Source: Ceratorhiza oryzae-sativae
Lineage: Eukaryota; Basidiomycota; Agaricomycetes; Cantharellales; Ceratobasidiaceae
Length of the DNA stretch: 64,000 nt
Direction of reading: 5' to 3'
Assembly (NCBI GenBank): GCA_030998015.1
Contig: JARWMV010000235.1
Location: forward strand, 744,001-808,000
The notes beneath the pieces are model-generated. The model was not told the DNA's origin. It saw nothing but the letters and a program-made list of their open reading frames with translations, and made no database searches. Within the stretch, counting starts at the first letter, position 1. The number at the start of each line of letters is the position of its first letter. Shown piece after piece: positions 3,479 through 58,295 of the stretch. Position numbers and translations under genes: made by a program.

Positions 3479-5910
3479 ATGCTGCAACCAATCCACAGTT
3501 GGGACCTCCCCGATGCTGACGGTTCAATTGCTGTCTCGCCCGATTGGACTCGCTTGGGAGTTGGTCGGAAACACTGCGTTATAGTCTATGACATGAATAC
3601 TGGACAAAGCGTTTTGGGCCCCCTGCAGGGCAGTGAGCGCCGCATTACATTCTCTCCGGATGGTCGTATGATTGCTGCTGCTACTGCCCAAACCAGCGAC
3701 GCGCACCTATACCCGGGTACAACAAACAGCAACGCACACGTATGGGACGCAACAACTGGCGACCTGATTCACCGTTTCCATTTTACAGACCTGGAATTTT
3801 CACCCACAAAACTCTGGCACAAGGAAGCATACTCTAAGGGTCTCTTGGGAGGAGTAAAGGAGATGGTTTTCTCGCACGACGGTCAGTTTCTTGTAACATG
3901 GGGCATAATAGCTCGCGTTTGCGCATGGGACACGCGTACTTGGAAGGCCATAGATTATGAAGGCGAAACAGGCGTCGTAGAGACCGCGGCCATTTCACCC
4001 GATAACAAGAGAGTTGCCGTTTCATACAGCCCGTCTCAAAAAAACAAGATATTTGTGTTTGATGCAGCTACAGGTTCCAATCTCTTTGCGTGCATGGGGC
4101 ATTCGAGTGGAATCCATTCAATCGCGTTCTCACTAGATAGCCGACGTATCATTTCTGGATCTTCTGATTGTACCGTACGCATTTGGGATGCCATGAACGG
4201 ACGTGCGACGGGTAATCCACTCGAGGGCCATACAGAATCTGTCAAGTTTGTAACATTCTTCTCTGAAAGCAATCTCATTGCTTCTGCTTCAGACACCTCG
4301 ACTGTCTGGGTCTGGGATTCGGCAACTGGGGTTCTGAGAGATACCTGGTCGTTTGAAGGTCGCAGGGTGTCGATAAGTCCTGACGGGAGCCTTCTTGTAT
4401 CGCGTGTCGATCGCACAATTCAGATATGGAAAACACCCAAGCTCGATTGGCTGGATGACAATGAATACCCGTCGATGGAAGCAGCAGAGACTCCCGAAAT
4501 TGAGATTAGTAGCACGATGGTATGGCGCGTATCTTTGATTATAAAAGCTAGTTCTGAGATGTTGTGGCCAGAGTCCTCAGCAGATAGTGTCGTATCTCGG
4601 AACTCGAGGCTGCAATGATCTAACCGAGATTCTCGACATGGCGAGTTGCACAGAATATCCAATCTCAACCGGCGGTTTTGGGGATATATATCGCGGAAGA
4701 CTCAAAGGCGGGACTGAGGTTGCGATCAAGACACTCAGGCTGTATGCTGGGCCGCAAGAAGAACCCCAGAAGCACTTAAAGGCTAGTATACTCTACTCCC
4801 AGTGGCCTAAAATGATCTTATAATCGCGCAGCATGCGGCTCGGGAGCTATACACTTGGTCAAAGTGTCGGCACCCTCATGTCCAACACTTGCTGGGACTA
4901 GCGGTACTGCGAGGACAGATAGGTATGATAGCGAGGTGGGAAGTGAATGGGAGCCTGCCAGAATATCTTGAGCGGCATCCAGATGTCGACCGGTGCGGAC
5001 TGGTAAGCAAAGTTGAATAGATCAATTGACACCCTTTGACGCGAGCATATCCAATTAAGAGCACGCAAATCGCCGACGGCCTGTCATACCTGCACTCATC
5101 AGGACTAGTATGTGCAAACCTGTATGCTCTGTGGCTTCAATGGTGCTAACCTAAACGCTCCCTAGGTTCACGGGGATCTTAAAGGGGTAGGCTATAATAC
5201 AAAATTTAGTATCAGTGACCAGAGCATGCCAGGCGAACGTACTAATATCTCATGACGGCGCTGCTCAACTCGCAGACTTTGGCAACGCAAAACTGCAAGA
5301 GTACACGCTCCAGTTTACCAAGACGTCCACAAAAGAGAGCCTCTCACCGCGCTGGGCGGCAAGTACCGTCAACCATATTAACAAATCAACGTACTAAATG
5401 CCAACAGGCCCCAGAACTATTCAAGGGAGGAAAGTGCGACACTTCGGCAGATGTATACGCACTAGGCATGGTGAGTGCAAGGTGATGTAATTTGACCAAA
5501 TCTTAATCCACATTTGGGATCAGACCATTTTAGTATGTTACGCCCTACACCTACTCGAATTGATCGTTGACAAACTCCAGGAAACAATAACGGGCCAGCT
5601 GCCATGGGCTAACAAGAGCGACCATGCAGTCATGTTTGCGGTCGTAATGGAGAACGCCTACCCGGATCGCCCAGAAGCGGAGATACCGAGATATTCGGAG
5701 CATGGGGACACGTTGTGGTCAATACTACAACGATGCTGGGAGGCTGAAGCGGCGAATCGTCCAACTGCAGCCGATGTAAGAATGATAGTAAGTGTTCCGC
5801 CGTTTGAATTCCTGCCCGATCTGAACTAGCTTCACCTACAGATGTTAGGTATCTCAATGGAAGGGCTGAAGAATCGAGAAGTTGAGATGGATGTTGATGA
5901 CGATAAGTAG
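3479..5910 (+). CDS. WD40 beta-propeller / protein kinase fusion
   Basis: One polypeptide of about 650 residues. Residues 1-346 form seven WD-type blades, ending successively in IVYDM, HVWDA, CAWDT, FVFDA, RIWDA, WVWDS and QIWKT, so the propeller is complete. An intron at 4518-4580 (GTATGG to CTCAG, phase 0) joins this in frame to a kinase domain of the basidiomycete tyrosine-kinase-like type. The kinase has a glycine loop STGGFGDIY, VAIK lysine, HGDLKG in place of HRD, ADFGNA, and a split WAAPELF (APE). The C-lobe ends ANRPTAADVRMI and the last exon ends DVDDDK. Without the intron the WD40 frame would stop at 4618, so a two-gene model is possible but less likely. Two introns appear to use GC donors (after LK at about 4780 and after WA at about 5360). 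A 9-nt microexon (5524-5532, Thr-Ile-Leu) is needed to restore the conserved GMTILETITG. Likely a cytosolic signalling protein; partner unknown. Confidence 0.85.
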
Positions 5911-6312: not shown

Positions 6313-8220
6313 ATGGCGAGCTCAAACTCCGTTTTGATTCTCGGAGCGGGCTGCTTCGGACTCTCGACGGCGTATGAGCTCCTCTCACGAGGGTACAAGC
6401 ACGTAACGATTGTTGATCGCGCACCCGAGCTTCCTGCACCAGATGCTGCATCTACAGGTGAGCAACCGTTATCGACTATGACGCGAACAGTTAGCTCTCC
6501 TGAAGGGGATCCAATTTGGGTTGCCTCGTTTTTTTTTTTTCCCCTACTCTCTCGCTCTCTCATTTGCTTCGGCATTCTCGGACTCTTCGGGTAGGGTAGT
6601 TTACTGATTCAACGGGCTTTGGTTTGATCAAGACTTGAACAAGATAGTACGTTCTGCATATCGTAAAGATGCATACACTCGAATGGCTCGAGAATCAATC
6701 AAAGAATGGAAAACCGGGGACTGGGACAACGCATATCACGAGTCAGTTCAACCAATCACTCTTCTGTCATCAAGTTTTGACCAGTGATTTATTTTATTTT
6801 TATTTATTTTTGTGCTCTCAGAAGCGGGGTTTTGGTCTGTGGTGGCCCGGTTGGGACTCCGTATTCTAGAGCGGCAGAACAAAACGACATTGCCGCCGGT
6901 GGACGCGTGACGCTCCTCCCGACGGCCGACGACATCCAAAGCGTGTTCCCGGCGGGGATCAGACTAGGCGAAATCGCAGAAGCCGAGGATCAAGGGCGCC
7001 GGGGGATCGCCGCCAAGAATTCGTGCTATCTCAACGCAGACGGAGGTTGGGTCGAAGCGACGACGGCGATCAAGGCGCTTTTGTGGCGGGTACGTGCCTA
7101 TGAAGGTCGCGGTGTGAATATCCTGGCTGGATGTCGGGTGACTGGATTGGAAATCGGCCCGGATGGAAGCGCGGCTGGCGTCCGAGTCGCGAGGAACGAG
7201 GAACGGGGCCAGGGCCAAGAACAAATCTTGACGGCCGACGTGGTGGTTCTCGCGACAGGGGCGTGGTCGTCGTCGCTGTTCCCAGGCGATTCATTCGGCT
7301 TATCAAAGTTGATGAAGGCGACCGGGTGCGTCTTGCCCGTTTATTCGTCGGATCGTAGATTTTGTTTTGATACACTGTTCGAACCAGGCAAAGCGTATTG
7401 TCTGTTCAGCTTTCTTCCGAAGAACTCACGAAATACAGCAAATGCCCTTCCTTTTTTGATACTTCGACCGGTTTGTACACTATGCCGGTAAGCGCCCCCT
7501 CTCCTATCTGGTTATGCATACCATCGCAAAACTCTTTGCCCTGCCGTTTAGCCTACAGCATCCGGTCTTCTGAAATGGGGGTTGCATCATACGGGCGCCC
7601 TCTCTTCTCACAAGGTCTCGACACCCCGAACCGGACTGGCGACAGACAACTCCGCTCGTCTGAACCCAGACGCGAGGATTGGGGTCGACGGTGCAGGGGT
7701 TCCGTGCGCTGTACCAAAATCCATCATTCGACCGATGCGGGATGCGATGCGGAAGCTGTATCCAGATATAGCGGACCGAGACGCGGCGTCGAGTCGGATA
7801 TGCTGGGTGGGTTGCTTCATGTGTATTGGGGAGGAGGCATATATGGTGAACGTATGCGCGCATTCAGTACGCAGATACCATTGACGAAGACTGGATCATC
7901 GACTACCACCCGTCCCATTCACGCATACTCTTCGCGACCGGGGGCTCTGGGCATGCATTCAAAGTACGCGTATACAAAAAACCCCATTGACCTTCTCAGG
8001 CTTTGATATTGATTTGGATCCCCTCCTTCTTTCCCTCTCCCCAAAGTTCTTGCCAGTGTTGGGGCGTGTTATCGCTGACAGACTCGAGAACAAGCTGGAC
8101 GAGGAATCCAAGTTGCTGTTTTCGTTTACGCGTCCTCGCTCAGCAGAGCACGTTGAGCGAGTGGGCGAGTACATCCGGATTGACGAGTCCGAGATGAGCA
8201 CGCCAGAGGATCTCAAGTAG
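6313..8220 (+). CDS. FAD-dependent amine/amino-acid oxidase (fructosyl-amino-acid / sarcosine oxidase-like)
   Basis: DAO-superfamily flavoenzyme. The N terminus is a Rossmann dinucleotide fold, VLILGAGCFGLSTAYEL, with GxGxxG and the acidic D at the end of beta-2 (VDRAPE). Exons then give the SGVLVCGGP segment, the substrate-domain core GGWVEATTAIKALL, VVLATGAWSSSLFP, and the C-terminal flavin-binding FATGGSGHAFKFLPVLGRVIAD typical of monomeric sarcosine oxidase and fructosyl-amine oxidases. It would oxidise a secondary amine or glycated amino acid to give H2O2; the exact substrate cannot be read from sequence. No PTS1 peroxisomal tail is present. Introns of about 45-165 bp interrupt it; the first (after DAAST) contains a poly-T run. 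The present stop codon TAG at 8218-8220 is the first three bases of the inserted transposon. The ancestral frame continued Gly-Leu-Ala-stop, now stranded at 14930-14941. Confidence 0.88.
8209..8217 (+). repeat. Target-site duplication, left copy
   Basis: GATCTCAAG, directly abutting the left end of the transposon. It is repeated perfectly at 14921-14929 on the far side and lies within the last codons (Asp-Leu-Lys) of the FAD oxidase. Confidence 0.95.
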
Positions 8221-8363
8221 TCTCTTCCACATCCGGTCTAGGTCGCTCCACCCTTCGGCGTCGTCAGGGTTCGGATCACTCGTTCCTCGCAACCGAACCC
8301 TCGTGCCTCGGGTCTCCCTAGACCGTCTGTAAGGATTTCTCGGAGAGCAGGCCTGACTTAGCG
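8218..8363 (+). repeat. Left terminal inverted repeat with foldback hairpin
   Basis: Starts TAGTCTCT. An outer motif (ACATCCGGTCTAGG, 8229-8242) pairs at 12 of 14 positions with an inner motif (CCTAGACCGTCTGT, 8317-8330). Between them is a perfect 9-bp hairpin, AGGGTTCGG (8266-8274) with CCGAACCCT (8293-8301). The inner 33 nt end in GACTTAGCG. A second TGACTTAGCGA copy lies just inside at about 8393-8403. Confidence 0.88.
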
Positions 8364-8477
8364 AAATTTCGGGCGTGGCTCCCATCGAAGCGTGACTTAG
8401 CGAGATGTCAATCGGCGCCTCTCGGATAAGACTTTTTGATTAGTACAGGTTGTAATGCGAGTCTACAAAAAGTGTAA

Positions 8478-11400
8478 TCAATCAAAATCAAACGGGTCCT
8501 CTTCCTCTCCGTCGCCGTTATCGACCACGACATCGAAAAGGTCTTGGTTTTGAGTCTCTGTAGGACTTTCCGTCAGTGATATGCATCTTCCGAGTACCCA
8601 TGTGCAGATGAAGTAAATAGATAAAAATATACTTGCTGACCTTGATCTTCGCCGTTCTCAGCATCGCCCTCTTCGCCGTCATTGGGCGGTTGGGTGGCAT
8701 ATGAGGTGTTATTTCGTGCCCCGAACCTATCTTTATTGAACGCCTTGATCGGAGAATTGTGTGCTTTACGTGCTAATACAGTAAATACAAATGATAGTGA
8801 ATAGTGGGTGAACTCACCTTCGAGACTCTGAAGCCCTAACGAAAGCGCGTCTTTGGCTTGTAAAGTTTTGTCGAGTTGTCGACTGGGATCGTGTCCGTGG
8901 ACTTCGCTTTCGACGAGCGATTCGACGAGTGCGTCAAGATCGGCCTGAAGGTTTGGCGCTGTATGATGGTTTGAATTACGAGGAGCGAGGGATGCGTTAA
9001 CCTGAGTGGCAAGTTCTCTCAAAGTGGAGATACATGGCGATATTTCGGCCAGCCATTTCCAAGTCGCATTGGGCCCTCGGGCCTTATAGATTCTCTGTGT
9101 TAAGATTGTAAGAAGCCCAGACGATTAGAAAAATCGATGCTTTTACCTTGATCCAATAGTTCATGTGTTCTTGGAGGAGATCTACCTCCTTCCACCCGTT
9201 CTTCTTACCCGTTGTGTTGACAAGCATGTTAGATAGTATAAGATCGCTAATAAAATAGAAGATATGGGTATATATAAGCGTTTTTAGCTCTTGACTTTCC
9301 ATACCGTAGCGGTTTCGGCCAAGCATGTGTCAGGTTATGGCGCAATCGTAGCAACTCGCCAGCATACTGGCTTCTTCCCGAGCCACGGAACAGGATCGTC
9401 CATATTTTGAGGATAAGTTCGATCATAGCCATGTTGCCGCATTTTACAGAGGTCACGAAACAGCGGAAGAGTAACGCGTCTCGGATGAATAGTATACTAT
9501 TTCGAAGCACATCGTCAGTCCCAGCCTCTTCGGGTGTGGTAAAGCGAGCGATAGCATTAGAGGCGACTAATTTTAGTCGCTCCCAGGCCTTATCGTCTGG
9601 TAGGTTCGCTAACTGCTCCCCAAAACGCTGGAGCGATTCGTATCCAGATTCAATTCGAACAATATCCAGAAGCCGAGCATAGAGCGAGTGAAACGTAAGA
9701 TCTTGCACAGTCCTGTATTTGGGGGGTTGTCCAACTGGGATGTTCTTTCGCTTCAAGATTTCATTATGTCTCCAAAGAGAGGCTGGGCTGTCTTTTGGCC
9801 GGGCGTTAGGTTTCCCAAAGTGACTATACAGAATTCCGTTAACGGCAGTGATTCGAATATGGAATAGGCTAGCAAATGGCACAAGATAGCTAAGGTTATC
9901 GACTTTATCCTTGATGTGCACAGGTGTTCGCATATATAGAGTTCGTACATCTCGAACGGAGAGAAGACGGCTAATTGTAAGCAAATCGCCAGTAGCTACG
10001 CATAAACGTTGTCTGAATAGTTCGGACTTGTCGATTTGAGTAATGCGTCGAAGTTCTTCAGTAACTGTTGCATTGCCGTTCGCTGAGGCTTGTTCGATAT
10101 GAAGCGTTGGCAGTGGGTAGACCTTTGACACCCGAAGAGGGAGAAGCGGGCGGATTAGAGGGCGAAGCATCTCGTTTGCTAGGCTCCAAGGTATCAGGAT
10201 ATGTTTCAGTCGTATAGATGTACCGTACTTACGCTTTTTGAACCGTTTAAAGAGTTCCCCTGCGTGTTCAACCAGAATGTTGACCGTCTCATACACAAAT
10301 TCGTTTCGAAGGTTTTGCTCATCTTCTTCGGTCGGCATAATGTCTGATATCTTAAGGTCAGGCGCATTTTCAACCGAGTGTAAGTATTTATCAAGATCCA
10401 GAGCTTCGTCGACTGCCTCTGGGCCGCAATCGGGGGGCGGATGAAGTTCTACAACTGTGGAAGCTGTACCGCTTTCAAAAGATCCTTTAAGATTGTGCTT
10501 ATTAGTGGGTCTGAAAGTAACAAAGCTAATCGACTAACCAGCGTTTTTGATACGTTGTTCTGCCGGTTTTTCATCGAAGTTGACATTGTCCCATACAAGC
10601 ATAGATTGACATTTTGCAACCACGTTTTGAAACCGCTCAGTGCAGGAACGATTAAGGCTTGAGAGCGAGTCAATGAGAGTGCTATAGGAGACTCCCAGTC
10701 CTAGTCGATTTAAAACATTGATTGTTGCAGCGTGGACTCCAGAGCTATAAAGGTATGCGGTAAATCCCTTGGCAAACATATTCGCCCTCTGCGATCTTTT
10801 GAGCCACAATATCGAGCCCACAACAGATAATGTCTACCAGGGAGTCGATTGAGTCTGCGGTTTTGGTATCAAAGCCAATTAAAAACTCTCACGATTGGTA
10901 CCTCGTCCTGCTTTGCTTCGGACGAGTGTTCACCATCTTTGATAAAAGACTCAAGGAGCGATACAAAATATGGCATATGATCGCACAGATGCTTGTGGAC
11001 TGTATTTGGCGACCATTCCTTGAGCAAATCTACTGTAAATGAGTTCGCTAGTGCGCATATATGGTTATCAAACCGTTTCTAGTTAGATGAACGAAGTTGG
11101 ATAATACTCACCATCCGTATTGAGACAATGATACTTTTCCATTTCTTTTGCCTCCCGCAAGATCTCTTGGCGTGCTATTTCTTTTGCCCAAGCTCGTACT
11201 GATTGCGCATCTTCAGCCTCGTCTATTTTGAGCTGAAAATCAGGATCTGATTTGGCCCTCTCATCTCCATAGTCGAATGCACACATTATCCGAACCATTT
11301 TGGCCACAGTCAGCTCATTTTCTCTAAGAAAGCGCCAAGCAGCATCAATGCGTTGGTAAATTGGGTCGGAGGTGCCAATAAAAGATTTCCGTGGACGCTT

Positions 11401-11598
11401 TTTGGGATGTGAAGGAAGGAGACGTTGTGGAGTGAGGTTAGGAAGCTTTGTTGCCTCTTCAAGACCACCTCGCGCAACTCGTCTACGTGCTCGTCCAAGG
11501 CGTGCAGCATCGCTCTTGGGCCCTTTAGAGTCAGGAAACGGACTGTCCTCAAGTTCAGAAAGATCAGAATCGAGAAGGTGTTTCTTGTGGCGAGACAT
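8478..11598 (-). CDS. DUF6589-family protein, candidate transposase
   Basis: About 880 residues in nine hand-built exons: 11598-11112, 11047-10902, 10833-10539, 10484-10233, 10178-9305, 9246-9147, 9094-8820, then two short ones ending at the TGA 8480-8478. It starts MSRHKKHLLDSD; the first ~90 residues are basic and disordered. The body matches the DUF6589 pattern known from Agaricomycetes: NKRSQR-like LKRSQRANMF, MLVWDNVNF (about residue 293), SGTASTVVEL, ATGDLLTISRLL (about residue 460), FHIRITAVNGI, and the C-terminal WTILFRGSGRSQYAGELLRL followed by VNTTGKKNGWKEVDLLQEHMNYWIK. The conserved aspartates in WDN and GDLLT sit in beta-strand-like contexts, consistent with an RNase H-like catalytic core, but that is my inference. 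The C terminus is very acidic (GDGEEEDPFDFD). It lies wholly inside the transposon, so it is the best transposase candidate. Confidence 0.85.
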
Positions 11599-11716
11599 GG
11601 TCCACTGATGACGAGGAAGAGAGAAGGAGAAAAAAGTGATGTATTTATGACAAATTGACCAGAAAAGGTTAAGTCTCTGCTCAATTTGCTTTTCACGACA
11701 GCCACATACGACGACC
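11599..11716. promoter_or_regulatory. 118-bp bidirectional promoter of the transposon genes
   Basis: Only 118 bp separate the start codon of the DUF6589 protein (11598, minus) from that of the RecQ-like helicase (11717, plus), so both 5' leaders and core promoters must lie here or overlap the genes. No strong TATA box is visible. The arrangement implies coordinated expression. Confidence 0.6.
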
Positions 11717-14622
11717 ATGCCAACTCCATTGAGCCCACAGACTCGAAAGACTCCAACTCCAGAGCCAGGCAATCCTAATGGTGAGTGCATATATTCACTG
11801 GAACACATCTAGACTCTTTCTATCCATTACGTCACTCCCAGATCTGGCCTCGCACCATCACCTCGTGTCGAAGATCCTCGAAAAAACTGGATTTGAGGCT
11901 CGAGAATTCCAAATAAATGCAGCCAAAGCAGTCTTAGGTGGACAAGATGTTGTAGTGCATGCAGGTACTGGAAGCGGCAAGACATTAATATTTGCAGCAC
12001 CACACTTTGTCTCTGAGAAAAAAACCTCAATCGTTATATCGCCCCTCATTCTCTTACAGCATGATCAAGCGAGTGTACATTTTATATAAACTGAAGGTAA
12101 AGAAAAAGCTAAACCTCCAATAGGAAGAAAGAATGCAAAAAATGGGCCTCACAGCGATTGCTCTTAACAAGGAGGTTCATGTCGAGACTGAGACCTGGGT
12201 GGTGAGTTTACCAATTTGGCAAATGATCGTTGGCTTCCGCTGATTAACTTTATGGTTCTTGATCGACGATCGACACCTCCACAGGAACTCGCTCAAGGCA
12301 AATACGAAATCGTTTTGCTTAGCCCTGAAATGGCACTACATAGTGAAGATGTGCACAGGGTATTCGACAGCGATGCCTTCCGCAAGGCGTTGATGGCGAT
12401 TCATGTTGATGAGGCGCATACAATTTCGCTTTGGGGAGGAGACTTCCGAAAGGATTATCAGGGACTAGGTCGAATCCGTGCGCGATTACCTAAAGGGGTT
12501 CCTGCTACGCTGGTCAGCGCGACACTACGCCCAAATGTCAAACACGACGCAATGTCGACGCTCGGCTTCTCTTCCGACCCATCTAAATACGTCGATATTA
12601 ATGTTGGGAACGAGCGATTCAACGTGTACATTGGCGCTCGCCCAATGCAGTATTCGTCGTCGTCTTTTAAAGATGTTCTACTACACTTTGATCCAGATGA
12701 GATTGACCCCAAAAACATTCCCCAGACTATCATATACATCGACAACGTCAACGAGGTTACCTCCGCTGTGGTTGCCCTATACGGCTGGCTACATCCGTCG
12801 CTCTCGGGGCAGGAACTGATTATGCCTGTACATGCTTGGATGACACCAAAATACAGGAGCGAAGCGATGGCTAAGTTTGCGTCAGGAGAAGTTAGGGTGA
12901 TAATCGCCACAGAGGCAGCGGGAATGGTGATTTTAAAGCTCTCTGCACTCTCAATCACTAATTCGCATTTCTCCGAGTATTTAGGGATGCGATATTTCGA
13001 ACATCAAAAGAGTGATTCAATTTGGGGTTTGTGGTTCAATAGGTGAGCAACTTAATGTGTGAATATCAGCTTTCTAATAAGTTGTTGCTTATTTGCATTG
13101 GTTAGACGCATTCATGCAGCGAATCGGCCGCGTTTGGCGCGGGTTAGATGGCAAGGGCGAAGGGTGGCTTATTTACGAAAAGTGGGTGCCCAACTGTAAC
13201 TCAGAAAAGACACCGAAGGAAAAAGGAAAAGCCCCGGTAAACAAGAAACGGAAAGCGGGCGGCGAAGCTGGGCCAACCCTCAATGCAAGCACGAGTAAAG
13301 CAGGGGCTAAAACAGAACGAAAATGCGACCTTCTGATTCAAAAGTTTGTAACTGAATCAAAATGTCGGCGGGAATACCTAAACCGTGTATACAATAATCC
13401 AAGAAGCGGTAAGTGCTTGATTTTTACTTTGACTTATGTTTTACTATCTAACGCCGCTCGCATTACAGGAGTGACGGTGCCGGCGCAAGACTGCTGCGAC
13501 TTATGCAATCCAAATTCCGCTATTCGTATCCCATCGCGTCAGTTTCCGGCACAGCGAGGTCCGCCAAGGGCTGCTCGTGTTTCTGGAGAACCAAACCCCA
13601 ATATGCTCTCTTGCCTCCGCACCTGGCGGACAAGTGCTTTTCGCGGCGCATTTGGTGTCTCGCGCATGTTTGGGTCGTCGGCACTGATCAGCGATGCTGA
13701 GCTTGAGCGTATTTCACGCTGCGCACCGGTTCCCTCTATAGACCGCCTTCGATCTTATCTCGTCAAGTGGCCACATGTTAACTCGCAGCTCGAATCAATG
13801 TGGGAAGCGCTCAAAGCCGGGGGGTTCGCCCTATCTATTGAATCCTCCGAGCTCACCCCCTCTGAAAGCCCGCTGGCGCCACGTTCTCAACCCACACCTG
13901 GGCCCTCCACTCTCCCTGCAACATCAGGCGCATCAAAGCCCCGAGACTCCACAGGAGCCGCATCCAAGGCTCGACCTAGGGCAACAAAGCGTCCTACGTC
14001 GACGCAAACACCAGCTGTTGACGATAAATGGTGGAGAGGATACTCGGGAGAGCGAAATTACGAGGTTCGTCGAAGTAATATGGATGACTTTCGTCGGATT
14101 TTTGCCGAGCAAGCGGAGCAGCAACCAGACGAAACGCCTCCCCAGCACACTCAACGCTCCAAACGTCGACGCATGAACGACGCACCCACTCCGCGTTCTG
14201 CTCATTTAGAGCTGTCCCTAGGGTCGCACTCTACGGCTGGGTTTCATTCGGCGCCCCACATCACCAACTCAACATTCAGCGCTCCTGCACGACCAGTTGG
14301 ACGCCTAATTGTACCGTCTCAACGTCTAGCAGCCCCCCTGCTTGAACAAAACCGAGCATCGAGGACTGTCAAACTCGATCGCTCGCTCGTCGGAAACGCC
14401 CCTATTCCACTAGTCCATCCTCTACCCATTCTGCCTCCCAACTTTACGTGTTTCGGCGTCTCCCGAAGGCGCGATTCTCCCTCTTCAACACTAGCACCGC
14501 ACCGACCCTCTCACCCGAAGCCTTACTTGTGCTACCCCTTCCACGATCAGCATCGAATGCTCGATGATTTAAGGGCCCTACTCAGTTGTCCTGCTGACCG
14601 CCCTTGTCTCTTTATCTCCTAG
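11717..14622 (+). CDS. RecQ-like DNA helicase of the transposon
   Basis: About 840 residues. The first short exon (MPTPLSPQTRKTPTPEPGNPN) splices at 11780 (GTGAGT) to a superfamily II ATPase. Motifs in order: I AGTGSGKT, Ia SPLILLQ, II (DEAH) HVDEAH followed by TISLWGGDFRKDY, III VSATLRP, IV IIYIDNV, V IIATEAAGMGCDISNIKRVIQFG (split by an intron), VI QRIGRVWRG. The order and the aromatic-rich loop after motif II fit RecQ-type helicases. The zinc-binding end looks reduced: CRREYLNRVY, then CCDLCNP after an intron at about 13409-13469. The C-terminal 350 residues are Pro/Ser/Thr-rich and disordered, with a short conserved-looking WWRGYSGERNYEVRR. It probably unwinds or remodels transposon DNA ends during excision or repair; the role is inferred from its position within the element. 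Confidence 0.88.
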
Positions 14623-14774
14623 TCTATTTTCTACTATTTTCCATACGTTATATGCTGTACTGATTTATTCTCTATTTAATACAATTTATGCGTCATGTTT
14701 TGAGCTATCCCGTCCCCATCTGTATGGTTGGCGCCTAACTCCCATGGTCGGCGCTTCGAGACCCACCGCGAAAT
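14623..14774. other. Helicase 3' flank inside the transposon
   Basis: AT-rich stretch between the helicase stop codon and the right inverted repeat. It probably holds the polyadenylation region; no gene. Confidence 0.5.
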
Positions 14775-14920
14775 CGCTAAGTCGAGCCTGTTCGCGGAGG
14801 TTTCAACACAGACGGTTTGGGGAGTAGCGAGGGAGGGGGATTTGATATTGGGGTGTGTGGGGTATATCAAATCCCACCGACCCGACCGAGCGGATCCTCA
14901 AACCGTCTGTGTAGAGACTA
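14775..14920 (-). repeat. Right terminal inverted repeat with foldback hairpin
   Basis: Mirror of the left end: CGCTAAGTC at 14775, inner ACAGACGGTTTGGGG (14808-14822), outer CCTCAAACCGTCTGT (14896-14910) and terminal AGAGACTA (14913-14920). Between the paired motifs is a perfect 12-bp hairpin, 14837-14848 with 14864-14875 (GGGATTTGATAT type arms), around a G/T-rich 15-nt loop. Relative to the element end, the paired arms finish at positions 57 and 84, the same positions as in the left repeat. Confidence 0.9.
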
Positions 14921-14929
14921 GATCTCAAG
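14921..14929 (+). repeat. Target-site duplication, right copy
   Basis: GATCTCAAG, identical to 8209-8217 and directly abutting the right end of the transposon. Confidence 0.95.
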
Positions 14930-14941
14930 GGCCTGGCGTGA
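14930..14941 (+). pseudogene. Stranded last codons of the FAD oxidase
   Basis: GGC CTG GCG TGA continues the oxidase frame after the duplicated GAT CTC AAG. It encodes Gly-Leu-Ala-stop, the probable original C terminus before the transposon inserted. It is no longer joined to the gene. Confidence 0.8.
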
Positions 14942-31900: not shown

Positions 31901-33183
31901 CAATAGAATCGCCGGTATGGGTACCAAGCGGGTCGAAGTTCTCCATATTGCAACAAATGATGGTGTTCTGTTACATTGTAAGTCATCGGTGAGCAGATAT
32001 CTTGTGGATGAACAAACTTACATCAGCCGCGTCACGAACTACCTCGTATTCAAGCTCCTTCCATCCCTTCATACTCTTCTCGATAAGAACCTGAGGGCTC
32101 AGAGATAGCGATTTGGCAGCTAAATCTCGAAGCTCATCCGGGTTGTTGGCAAATCCAGAGCCTAGCCCTCCGAGGGTAAATGCAGAGCGCAAGATGACGG
32201 GGTATCCAATAGCTTCGCCAGCGGCAAGTGCCGCATTCACGGATGAAACTGCTGTAGATCGAGCAACGGGAATATCGATCTCTACGCATATGGGTCAGTG
32301 TTGGGGCAAGACAGAAGAGAGTCCTGAAGCACGTGCCATTAAGGGCCTGTACGAATAGATCACGATCCTCGGATACCTCGAGAGTGCGGATTGGGGTGCC
32401 AAGGACCTTGACGCCAAGCCGCTCAAAGACACCCATCCGGTCGAGCTCAATGCCAACGTTCAGTGCGCTTTGGCCACCAAACGTGAGAAGAACGCCATCG
32501 GGGCGCTCCTTTTCGAGAACGTAGGCGACGTAGTCTGGTGTGATGGGCAGGAAATAAACCTCGCTCGCAAGCTGATGGCTCGTCTGCCATGTCGCAATGT
32601 TCGGGTTGATCAAAACTGCCTCGACGCCTGCCTCGCGCAGCGCCTTCATTGCTTGTGAGCCAGAGTAGTCGAATTCGCCCGCCTGCCCAATGCTCAGCCC
32701 GCCTGAACCGACAACGACGACCTTGCGGACGTCTGGCCGCTCGAGTTTGGGCAGAACCCGAGCAGATATCTTCCGCGCGAGCTCCGACGGGGAGCTCAGG
32801 ACGTGTTCGTTATTGGGCGCATAGTCTCCCACAGCTGGCGCCGCAACTGCGAGTGTCCTCGTGGTTGGTGCGATGCGGATGGGTCGGGATACATGCAGCG
32901 AGCGGCTAAGGGGCAGTGCTAAGCTGCGTGTGGTTGGGCTTTTCGGGCTATGATGCTTGTCGCAGACCGGGCCGCAGGTCGAGCAAAGGCCATGGTTTAG
33001 TGGAATGGAAAAAAGTTGCGTTGGAGTCGAGTCAACGCCCAAAATATAAAGCAAATTCCGGTTAGCCTTGTTTGGATATGATGCATCGGATTGATCGGAC
33101 GTAAGCACTCCATTTTCATTTCCCCTGGATGACCGAAGGGCTTTATCAATAATTAACCGGCCGAGAACAAACTCTGAATCCAT
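28983..33183 (-). CDS. CPA2: Carbamoyl-phosphate synthase, arginine-specific, large subunit
   Basis: About 1,190 residues in nine or so exons, complete at the C terminus ([14 protein letters not shown], stop at 28983-28985). It makes carbamoyl phosphate from bicarbonate, ammonia (passed from the small subunit) and two ATP, feeding ornithine transcarbamylase in arginine synthesis. Both ATP-grasp halves are visible: [21 protein letters not shown] and [15 protein letters not shown] starts, NPEYxxV-type segments, [10 protein letters not shown] and VIEVNAR in half 1, and [17 protein letters not shown] in half 2. The C-terminal MGS-like domain follows (about 29600-29200). The [20 protein letters not shown] stretch is a typical mitochondrial presequence, as in filamentous fungi. 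The open frame starts at 33183, but a better presequence start [18 protein letters not shown] lies at 32993 one base out of frame, so the 5' end is uncertain. It is convergent with MFS copy 2 at 177 bp. Confidence 0.93.
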
Positions 33184-41879: not shown

Positions 41880-44800
41880 ATGTCCAAGCCGCCGAACTCG
41901 CCCCGGACGCCGGGGGCTGACGACGCACGCGGACGGGCGAGCGTGGACGGGGTCGCTGCAAGTTGTTTTACTCTGCTTGGCAACCACAGGCTGATTGAAA
42001 TTGTCCCCTAGAAGCCCACCAGTGGAGGTCAGCGTTCTCGGTCGGGCGCCACCCCATCATATTGAGCCTGATTTTTGCTGTGCTCTAGGTGCTCCCTCTG
42101 TCAAGTCGTCGTCCAACTCGAGCGGAAAGACGACCAAGGACAAGCGGCGTCGGTGAGTTTTCCATTGTTCCATGTGCCCCTCGCATGGCCTAGCTCTGCA
42201 GCTCATCTGACTTTTATTTATTTATCTGATTGTCAGGAACCCCAGCCCCCCCAGCTTGTACTTTGCACCACCCATGAAGAAAACACCCACGACACCGAAA
42301 AAATCCAAGACAGTCGCCCCGAGCATCCGCTCCGGAGACAGCGGCGAGACGTTCGACTCGACTCGAACGGCGCGCCCAACCACCAAGTCCGACCCTCCGT
42401 CGTTCTACCAGCCGGTCCCGCTGCCCACCAAGAAGAGCAACGACCTGCGCAGCATCTCCAAATCGACGCTCGACCTGCGCACGCCGACGCGCGACACGTT
42501 TTCCGTGTTCAGTGGCAGCAGTGGGAGCGGAAGTGCCAGCGGTGCGCTCAGCATTTCTCCGAGCATCACCAGCGCGTCGCCGAGCACGCCCGTGACCGAC
42601 GAGCCGATCAAGACGTTGCGTCTGCCTGCGCTCGGCCGGAGGAAATCGGCGCCGCTGCATCAGCCTTCGATGCCACCATCGGGCGACTTGCCACCTGTGC
42701 CAAAAGATCAGCTTACCAGGGTCAACTCGTCCAGAAGCGCCCCGCGCGTGCATTCGTCCACCACACGCGACGGAAACACGAGTGATCACCTCACTCGTCT
42801 CGACCCTGCCATGGTCAGCCTTTTTTTTTTCCGACCGTTTTCGCCATGCGATGTCCGCTGATGATCGTCTAGCCTCCGCAAAAAGTTGCGCCTGTCGCCA
42901 AGACCCAGCCCGAGTATGTACTCGGCGTCGTTGGTACCAAAGGATGTGGCAAATCGACTCTCATCAAGTGTGCGATCAACACGGCCGACGCGCGAGAGTC
43001 CCGCAGCGTGGCCGCTAGTGCCGACGGTCCGACTATGACCCGTGAGTCTCGATCCCCTCCGTTTTTTTTCCCCCTTCTGTTGTTAACGGGCCTCACAGTT
43101 GCCTCGACGACCACTTCCCGCGGCGCGGTCCGCATCCTCGAGATCGATGCCGACGAACTCCTGGATCTCTCCGAAATCGAGTCGGACAAATGGCGCCTCT
43201 GGCCTGAAGGGTTCCCCAAGCTGCATGGTCTCGCAGTGTGTTACGACGCACAGGATCAACGGAGCTACAGCCAGGCCAAACAGATCCTAAGTGCGTCGCT
43301 TTGTTCAGCTTGTCTTGCTTTGTGCTCAAAATCAATTCAGCTGGCGTTGGCACGAGCTTCACCGACCCGTCGTTCATCACCCTCCTCATCGCTTGCAAAT
43401 CTGATCTCCTCGACGAATCAAGCCCAGACACACCCGAAGTCTCCGCTGAACGCGCTTCCAAAGTCGGCGCAGAACATGGCGCCAAGTTTGTCCGCGCCAC
43501 GCACCGCACCCCTGAAGGCATTCAGTACATGGTCGGTGCTGTCCAATGGATGCTCGACCATCTATCCAAGTTCCGAGGTAAGCAATTTTTGTCTCCTATT
43601 TTGGCTCAAGCCCGGGCTGCTTCGCAACTCGATCGTCATGGTCACGTGTGCCGTCATAACGGCCCACCGCTCGCTGCCTCTTGTTCCCACCACGATTCTC
43701 ACGACTTGAATGTTCTGGCTAGGTACCAAACGAGTGATTATTATCCCTCGAACCAAAAAATCTGCACCGGCGGCAGAAAAGTCGGCGTTGGCGCGCGCAC
43801 GCTCGGCTGGCGACTTGGTCTCTACCTGGATCTCGGATAACTCTGATGCTGGTGCTCGCACTGCACCCCCAGTCTTTTCTCCTCCACCCCCACCCGCGCC
43901 TGTAGAAGAGCCGGGAAGACCGAGTATCGGCGACGAAAGTCTGTTGTCCTTTGGCTTCCCCAAGGTCCCCACCACGATTCCTTCGCCCGTTCCCGAGCAT
44001 GCCCAGCAGGTGCCAACACCAAGCCCAGTGAAGAGGTGCCGCAGGTCCGCGCACCGCCTCTCCAGCTCAAGATTGACGGGACGCCGTCCGAGGCCCCGCC
44101 CCGCAAGCAGCCTGCTCCGTAAGTCATCTTGCCGTAATAGGCGTATCTGAGGTTGACCCTGTCTAGTCTATGTATGCGCTGGGCCACACCCGAAGAGTTG
44201 CTGGACAAGCTATTCTTTGCTGGAGTATCTGACGATGGTGCGTGATGGTGCGCTTTGGGCCGGGCCAGTGCTGATTGGGCCCCGCAGAACCCTGGTTCAT
44301 ATTCAACTTCTTCCTCACCTATCGATTGTTCATGACCCCTCGAACGGTCCTTCTCAGTTTCCAAAAACGGCTTCGCGACCTAGATGAATACTCGGATGAT
44401 CCTATCCTGGCCGGCTTTGTCCAGCAACGCCTCTGCGAGCTTCTCCAAACCTGGATCGAAGACTACCCCAACGACTTTGCCGCGCCCGGCGCTCCGAGTG
44501 CACTTGCCGCCGTTGTACGCACAGCATGCGAAAACACGCATCTGATGTACTATGGCTCCGAGTTTACGTACTTTTTGGACGAGCTTCCCGGACTGACGGA
44601 CGATGCGGCCTCGTGGGCGTTTGTCAGTGCAGACACGCCTATTGAGGAAGCCGAGTCGTTGTACGAGTTTGATCTCGATTTCAACCATGATTTCGATCAT
44701 GGGCTGTTTGGAGATGGCCAGGGGTTGTTTGATCCGGGGTATAGCGTCGCGAGTGCTGTCAATGGGAATGGTAGTGCCCCGGTCGAGGAGTCTGTCGCGC

Positions 44801-45892
44801 CCGAGGCGAGTCGGTCCCCTCCGATCACGGCGAACGAGTTTAGTGGGCGCCGGCTGACGCGGAACGAGTCGCTTCAGGATGAGATGGGACGTGGGACTAG
44901 CCCGGACGCGCGCCGTGGGGTTTCGCCAGTCATCAAGGTGCTGGCAAATGTAGCCTCACAGTTGCTGGAGTATACGCCCGTTCAGGTCGCAGAGGAGATT
45001 ACCAGGATCGAGACTGGACTATTTTTGAAGATCAAACCGAGGGATTGGGTGAGGCGGGGTGTCAAGGAGGACAAGCTGGCAAGCCCAAGTCGATTATTGA
45101 GATGAACGCGTTTTTCGATCGGATTGGCAAATGGTGAGTGGCTGTCGTTGGTTAGCGTGTCGTGTCTAATCTGGCGCTAGGGTCATGTCGCTGGTCGTTT
45201 CGCTCAACCGGGCCCAAGAGCGCGCGCGTTTGGTCACGCACTTGTGCGACATTGCTCAATCTCTTCGTGCGCTGAACAACTATTCTAGTCTGCGCGCGTT
45301 CCATGTGGGGATCAATTGCGTGTGCGAGCAAGGAGACGTAGTCCAGTCTCAGGTCCCGGACAAAGTGTGGCGCAAATATCAGAGTGCGGACAAGTTGTTG
45401 AGGGTCAACGAGAATCATTTGCTTTATCGGATGGCGGTCAAGAATACGTTTGGGGCTGGTATTCCTTCTTTGTGAGTTTTTATTAGTCGTTTTCCGGGTG
45501 ATGAATGCTAACTTGGACACAGGGAGGTCCATTCGAGTGATTTGAGTCGAATTGGAGAGATGCCAAGTACGAATGCCGAAGGTCACATTCACTGGGCCAA
45601 GTTTACACACTTGGGCAATAATATCCACGAGATCAACGCGTTCCAGGAGCGCATTCGGGAGGACGGCGAGTATGCATTTGAGCCCAATCAGGCTTTGACG
45701 CGGTTGATTGTCGAGCCTGAATTGTTGGATATGGATGTGAGTTGGCCGTATTTCTTAGGAAAACGCATGCTGATGGTTTTGCAGAGCATATATGAACGTT
45801 GTTCACAGGTGGATCGCGATTTGCAGGGTGGATACCCCGTACCGATGCCTACCTCCACGGCTAGTAGGTTACACAAGTACCTTCGTCGATGA
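41880..45892 (+). CDS. Ras-type guanine nucleotide exchange factor with N-terminal P-loop GTPase-like domain
   Basis: Large signalling protein. The N-terminal ~240 residues are Ser/Pro-rich and disordered. Next is a Ras-like P-loop domain (42890-43580): VLGVVGTKGCGKSTLIKCAI (G1), LLIACKSDLL (G4-like, Cys for Asn), then a Pro-rich linker. The RasGEF N-terminal motif (REM) lies at about 44170-44600 (ATPEELLDKLFFAGVSD, FLTYRLFMTPRTVL). The catalytic CDC25-type RasGEF domain covers about 44930-45800 (ITRIETGLFLKIKPRDWV, MSLVVSLNRAQERARL, ALNNYSSLRAFHVGIN, EVHSSDL, INAFQ), ending in a short tail. It would load GTP onto Ras-family GTPases at membranes. The start at 41880 needs a tiny 16-nt exon near 42012. 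Two one-base frame breaks (about 44033 and 45060) interrupt otherwise continuous homology; each is cured by one added base, so sequence errors are likely. Confidence 0.82.

Positions 45893-56469: not shown

Positions 56470-58295
<1,826 letters not shown>

Follow-up and report, generated by a model that had tools for sequence, protein, structure and literature searches.

Two divergent genes, one encoding a protein with the DUF6589 domain and the other a RecQ-like helicase, lie within a 64,000-nucleotide stretch of the Ceratorhiza oryzae-sativae genome (contig JARWMV010000235.1, positions 744,001 to 808,000; the window, whose numbering is used here) and together occupy a transposon that spans positions 8218-14920 (Table 1). 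The element is 6,703 bp long, begins at both tips with TAGTCTCT reading inwards in inverted orientation and is flanked by a perfect 9-bp duplication, limits that agree to the base with those of a first-pass annotation made from the letters of the sequence; that annotation had called the two genes cargo, and they are more aptly seen as machinery that belongs to the element. The 9-exon DUF6589 and 7-exon helicase models are our own predictions from sequence, one intron of the latter depending on a GC-AG junction.

Table 1. Features of the transposon and its target site (window coordinates).
Feature	Position	Strand	Basis or remark
DUF6589 gene (predicted transposase), 9 exons, 883 amino acids	11598 to 8478	-	PF20231, E 1.3e-111, profile 4-410 of 410
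DUF6589 key residues: D296; D461; H503; E714	10590-10588; 9987-9985; 9861-9859; 9170-9168	-	
RecQ-like helicase gene, 7 exons, 841 amino acids	11717 to 14622	+	
Helicase motifs: GTGSGKT; DEAH; QRIGRVWRG	11964-11984; 12408-12419; 13117-13143	+	
Helicase zinc-type cysteines: CRRE; CCDLC	from 13363; 13492-13506	+	
Target site duplication, left copy GATCTCAAG	8209..8217	.	perfect 9-bp flank match
Target site duplication, right copy GATCTCAAG	14921..14929	.	perfect 9-bp flank match
Left terminal region, starts TAGTCTCT	8218..8363	+	15 host-genome matches including self
Right terminal region, starts TAGTCTCT on minus strand	14774..14920	-	18 host-genome matches including self
Outer end motif ACATCCGG, base 12 from left tip	8229..8236	+	motif search of ends
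Inner end motif (CCGTCTGT on plus), inverted relative to outer, base 106 from left tip	8323..8330	-	
Outer end motif ACAGACGG, base 11 from right tip	14903..14910	-	motif search of ends
Inner end motif, inverted relative to outer, base 106 from right tip	14808..14815	+	motif search
Last codons (GLA, stop) of interrupted open frame ...STPEDLK/GLA-stop	14930..14941	+	frame open once flanks joined

Searches for DNA copies covered the host genome (48.8 Mb in 253 contigs, to which labels such as C235 refer), and relatives in other fungi were compared as proteins. The search with the 146-bp ends (match counts in Table 1) recovered further copies with the same ends. Two of these are full copies with different flanks, C235:1562950-1569656 (C235b), 99.94% identical to the window element, and C10:293285-299981, 99.82% identical. 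C235b departs from the window element in the helicase gene alone, through insertions of 1 and 3 bases and one change. In C10 the helicase has lost 2 bases and a late exon of the predicted DUF6589 model has lost 1; there are also six changes and a 3-base deletion that keeps the frame. Assembly errors are indistinguishable from real breaks in these insertions and deletions. More divergent two-gene elements with the same ends lie on C244, C251, C233 and C243, and shortened derivatives on C18 (2,086 bp) and C39 (1,748 bp). With up to 2 mismatches allowed, the genome contains 19 occurrences of a 19-base tip pattern and none of the reversed pattern.

Among the 13 elements for which both ends were located, exact flanking duplications of 9 bp were found in six, the window copy included, of 8 bp in four and of 7 bp in one; another matches at 8 of 9 positions and the last has none. 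One-ended or truncated ends (C23, C25, C28, C33, C79:67634, C87, C99, C237:112584 and others) were left out of this count, and in 156 mismatched flank pairs taken as a control the longest match was 5. An empty-site relative is available for C244, whose flanks, once joined and stripped of one duplication, align gap-free with C52:89998-90154 over 157 bp at 94% identity; seven more loci span the joined C244 junction, judged by coordinates only. Precise insertion with duplication, several copies and shortened derivatives are all visible at the level of sequence, and on that evidence the element is a real, recently mobile DNA transposon. At least 14 other loci match the right flank of the C18 copy (C18:9416), their matches beginning no more than 3 bases from the point of insertion, as would be expected had that copy inserted at the edge of another repeat.

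The ends themselves have an ordered structure. The inner ACCGTCTGT motif terminates at base 113 counted from either tip, which bears out the equal internal spacing noted at first pass, and a local alignment of the two 260-base ends scores 53, whereas 500 single-base shuffles reached 26 at most. The terminal repeat is discontinuous, a conserved tip and an inner block being separated by a poorly conserved stretch. At each end of six copies (the window copy C235a, C235b, C10, C251, C233 and C243) an outer motif (ACATCCGG, ACGTCCGG or ACAGACGG, at base 11-12) is accompanied by the inverted inner CCGTCTGT at base 105-108. C244 has the motif pair at its left end only, and its two ends align no better than shuffles; C18 has one-base variants of the pair at its left end and an outer variant only at its right end. 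These motifs were sought as a short list of variants already seen in the sequences, C39 lying outside that test. It is possible that the inner motif is a second protein-binding site, i.e. that each end offers two sites to the transposase.

The association of the two genes extends well beyond the window family. From 31 of 51 DUF6589 matches 26 loci were defined (the remaining 20 fall in the same loci by coordinates), and from 35 of 78 helicase matches 33 loci; of the 26 DUF6589 loci, 19 have a helicase no further than 6 kb away, against 0.21 expected under uniform placement, although the 19 pairs are not 19 independent events because the loci are related copies, and one of them (C237:77412) is doubtful, its helicase piece probably coming from a neighbouring element. 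For eight elements the protein distances of DUF6589 and helicase correlate at 0.978, a value that only the true pairing among 40,320 permutations reaches; C251-C233 is out of line, with a DUF6589 distance of 0.21 and a helicase distance of 0.01. The link suspected at first pass is thus borne out by genes that diverge in step. Nearby locus tags for relatives of both genes are also found in other Ceratobasidium genomes (FRC06_009194/009196; FRC09_020860/020863; FRC12_002123/002125), FRC12_002123 matching a small part of the query only. These comparisons demonstrate a conserved pair of genes, inherited together.

Between the window family and C244, 875 codons of DUF6589 give a ratio of nonsynonymous to synonymous change (dN/dS) of 0.087, and 814 codons of the helicase one of 0.167. 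Only pieces with a local identity of 35% or more entered the calculation, a choice that lowers dN, and in wider comparisons the silent sites are saturated. The ratios are a signal consistent with purifying selection on both genes.

More distant members of the group differ in their tips and in the arrangement of their genes. C232:1437932-1443451 and C83:13800-19321 have TAGACTCC tips, a 176-bp terminal repeat and 8-bp duplications, and C232:2942725-2950885 has TAGGCTCG tips and an 8-bp duplication; for these three the ends were set by self-alignment and the duplication was then sought within 12 bases to either side, which gives a small extra freedom, and shifting one tip of C232:1437932 by a base would yield a 9-bp duplication. 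Genome-wide, the TAGACTCC tip pattern is found 8 times and the TAGGCTCG pattern 12 times, with no occurrence of the reversed controls, and the tips of three groups read TAGTCTC, TAGACTC and TAGGCTC. The gene order is divergent in the window-like families and in C232:2.94M and convergent in C83, C232:1.44M, C79, C7, C3 and C244:370k. Three DUF6589 loci with no helicase match within 6 kb (C240:277745-284583, C51:42634 and C241:1057735) have TAGACTCC tips nearby and on that ground seem to be decayed convergent-family members. On C237, between about 57,500 and 120,000, five DUF6589 loci from several families are crowded together, perhaps nested, and the tips at 57960 and 76426 have no common duplication.

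The DUF6589 protein is very probably the transposase, predicted to be of the DDE type. D296, D461 and E714 are invariant wherever they are aligned among DUF6589 proteins, in alignments of 40 proteins (omitting P0014, P0019 and P0043) and of 35 (omitting five more). The predicted fold is RNase H-like and in the models, to which this reading is confined, brings the three acidic residues into register: D296 lies within the strand 291-301, D461 directly after the strand 456-460 and E714 within the helix 709-727. The first pass had already pointed to the aspartates in the WDN and GDLLT contexts, to which glutamate 714 can now be added. The top matches of two predicted structure models are Hermes, the P element, ISCth4, Transib and RAG1. 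The Foldseek evidence is weak when taken by itself; among viral models the single match below 1e-3 was to a Pandoravirus protein that bears the name hAT-like (E 8.1e-4), to which no weight is given. The PF20231 profile is spanned almost end to end, but the match starts at residue 353, past the first proposed catalytic aspartate, so that the domain alone lacks the full triad because the profile starts downstream of D296. No Pfam match to the MULE transposase domain was found at E up to 1 (single open reading frames, ORFs) or 0.1 (spliced protein). The closest protein relatives of the window element are from Ceratobasidium, at 87% identity. The source record of P0014, a DUF6589 protein from Rhizoctonia solani, calls it "Gamma-tubulin complex component 4", a name that suggests either misannotation or a fused gene model.

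The second protein of the element is, by its sequence, a RecQ-type helicase. Residues 1-472 match TIGR00614 recQ_fam (CDD:129701, presumably the same model) with E 1.4e-48 and 165.8 bits, below the curated cut-off of 219.8; the best PDB matches are RecQ chains, and we take the cysteine set to be RecQ-like.

It thus appears, with a probability of about 0.85, that the window holds a member of an autonomous, recently active family of cut-and-paste DNA transposons with a DUF6589 DDE transposase and a RecQ-like helicase, which by its traits falls in the AcademH lineage. DUF6589 would have an RNase H-like core interrupted by a large helical insertion, an arrangement known from Hermes, the P element and RAG1, and would bind the paired inverted motifs close to each TAGTCTCT tip and bring the ends together. 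It would then catalyze cutting at the TAG tips, the presumed route of excision, and insert the ends by staggered cuts about 9 bp apart, the repair of which would leave the flanking duplication. The helicase would probably unwind or clear DNA at the ends, or dismantle or repair the joined product.

The transposase assignment for DUF6589, until now a domain of unknown function, is the useful gain. A literature search found no paper that ties DUF6589 by name to a transposase, most subscription papers and the AcademH paper lying outside that search. DUF6589 proteins are listed as hypothetical in many mushroom-class fungi, and reading them as transposases would correct those annotations and mark the linked RecQ-like genes as transposon-borne. 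Since near-identical copies exist, the family also makes it testable whether a eukaryotic DNA transposon needs its own helicase.

At its target the window element is inserted three codons ahead of the stop in a frame ending ...STPEDLK/GLA-stop. An upstream ORF at 6784-7491 matches the FAD oxidoreductase DAO (E 1.3e-9), and we infer that it and the interrupted frame are one gene. Other host-type ORFs in the window encode a WD40 repeat protein (3479-4618), a carbamoyl-phosphate synthase domain (32134-33183) and a RasGEF N-terminal motif (44275-45105).

The alternative that survives best, although it is rather unlikely, is that the DUF6589-RecQ elements are a superfamily of their own nearer to hAT or P elements and that the resemblance to AcademH arose separately. 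Elements of the hAT type duplicate 8 bp and have TAG or CAG tips, which the three tip groups and the 8-bp duplications of the three far-family elements recall, and Hermes (hAT) and the Drosophila P element are the best fold matches in both models, sharing with DUF6589 a predicted RNase H-like core and a long helical insertion that precedes the last of the acidic residues. However, the identity in the structural alignments is about 7-12%, the helicase partner is a further difference, and the Pfam scan shows no hAT domain; the hAT C-terminal dimerisation domain gave no match at E up to 0.1, an absent profile match not being an exclusion. The duplication is 9 bp in the window element, and 8 bp in the 4 of 13 elements noted above. 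The hAT motif C/DxxH, as given in the excerpted text of PMC9587614, is lacking, since H503 is invariant but the residue at -3 is S or G in 13 aligned rows. A helicase together with a 9-bp duplication is moreover the combination published for AcademH, as far as the available part of PMC10045372 describes it. Improbable to much the same degree is a separate and ancient superfamily defined by TAGNCTC tips, 8-9-bp duplications, two-site inverted ends and an element-encoded RecQ helicase that would be obligate for transposition.

A still less likely proposal is that the element once captured the helicase and now carries it as a dispensable passenger, to which the disturbed helicase frames of C10 and C235b and the shortened elements without complete genes (C18 and C39) might point. 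The small deletions may be assembly errors, however, and proteins can act on other copies; the pair is retained, in two gene orders, across families with differences at about 64-79% of the residues compared, and the helicase carries its own signal of purifying selection.

Identity with KolobokH has very little in its favour beyond the RecQ helicase and the fungal host, KolobokH, known from fungi only, being described in the sections of PMC9587614 consulted as fungal and RecQ-encoding. The same sections give Kolobok a TTAA (4 bp) duplication and 5'-RR termini, whereas the elements here have duplications of 7-9 bp of varied sequence and TAG termini; KolobokH was rejected because duplication and termini differ. 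That the two are ordinary neighbouring host genes, or paired by chance with a coincidental terminal repeat, would suit the annotations in other Ceratobasidium genomes, where they are listed as hypothetical or as helicase genes, but is next to impossible given the repeated copies with matching ends, duplications and empty sites and the pairing at 19 of 26 loci.

The preferred placement among helicase-bearing Academ elements remains to be set against what is described of them. The AcademH lineage of the Academ superfamily is reportedly that of Kojima (2020, Mob DNA 11:15). According to the accessible portion of PMC10045372, AcademH encodes a helicase and duplicates 9 or 10 bp, AcademX 3 or 4 bp, and a relation of this difference to helicase as against nuclease is suggested; AcademH is low-copy in Basidiomycota, Ascomycota and Mucoromycota (PMC10799480, in extract), and in fungi the Academ copies contain DEAD and recQ_fam domains and have frequently been annotated as host genes (PMC6416283, likewise). 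The window element shares with AcademH the encoded helicase, the 9-bp duplication and the occurrence in Basidiomycota, and with the fungal Academ copies a helicase of the recQ_fam type, to the extent that these extracts describe them. It differs from AcademH in that its distant relatives in the host genome have 8-bp duplications, and the group shows both divergent and convergent gene orders. Membership in AcademH, which the first-pass annotation had raised, is probable on these published traits, which match as far as the extracts go, and it is set by description rather than by homology of the transposase. Within a kind that is known but has been little studied, the helicase-bearing Academ elements, the window element appears to represent a new family.
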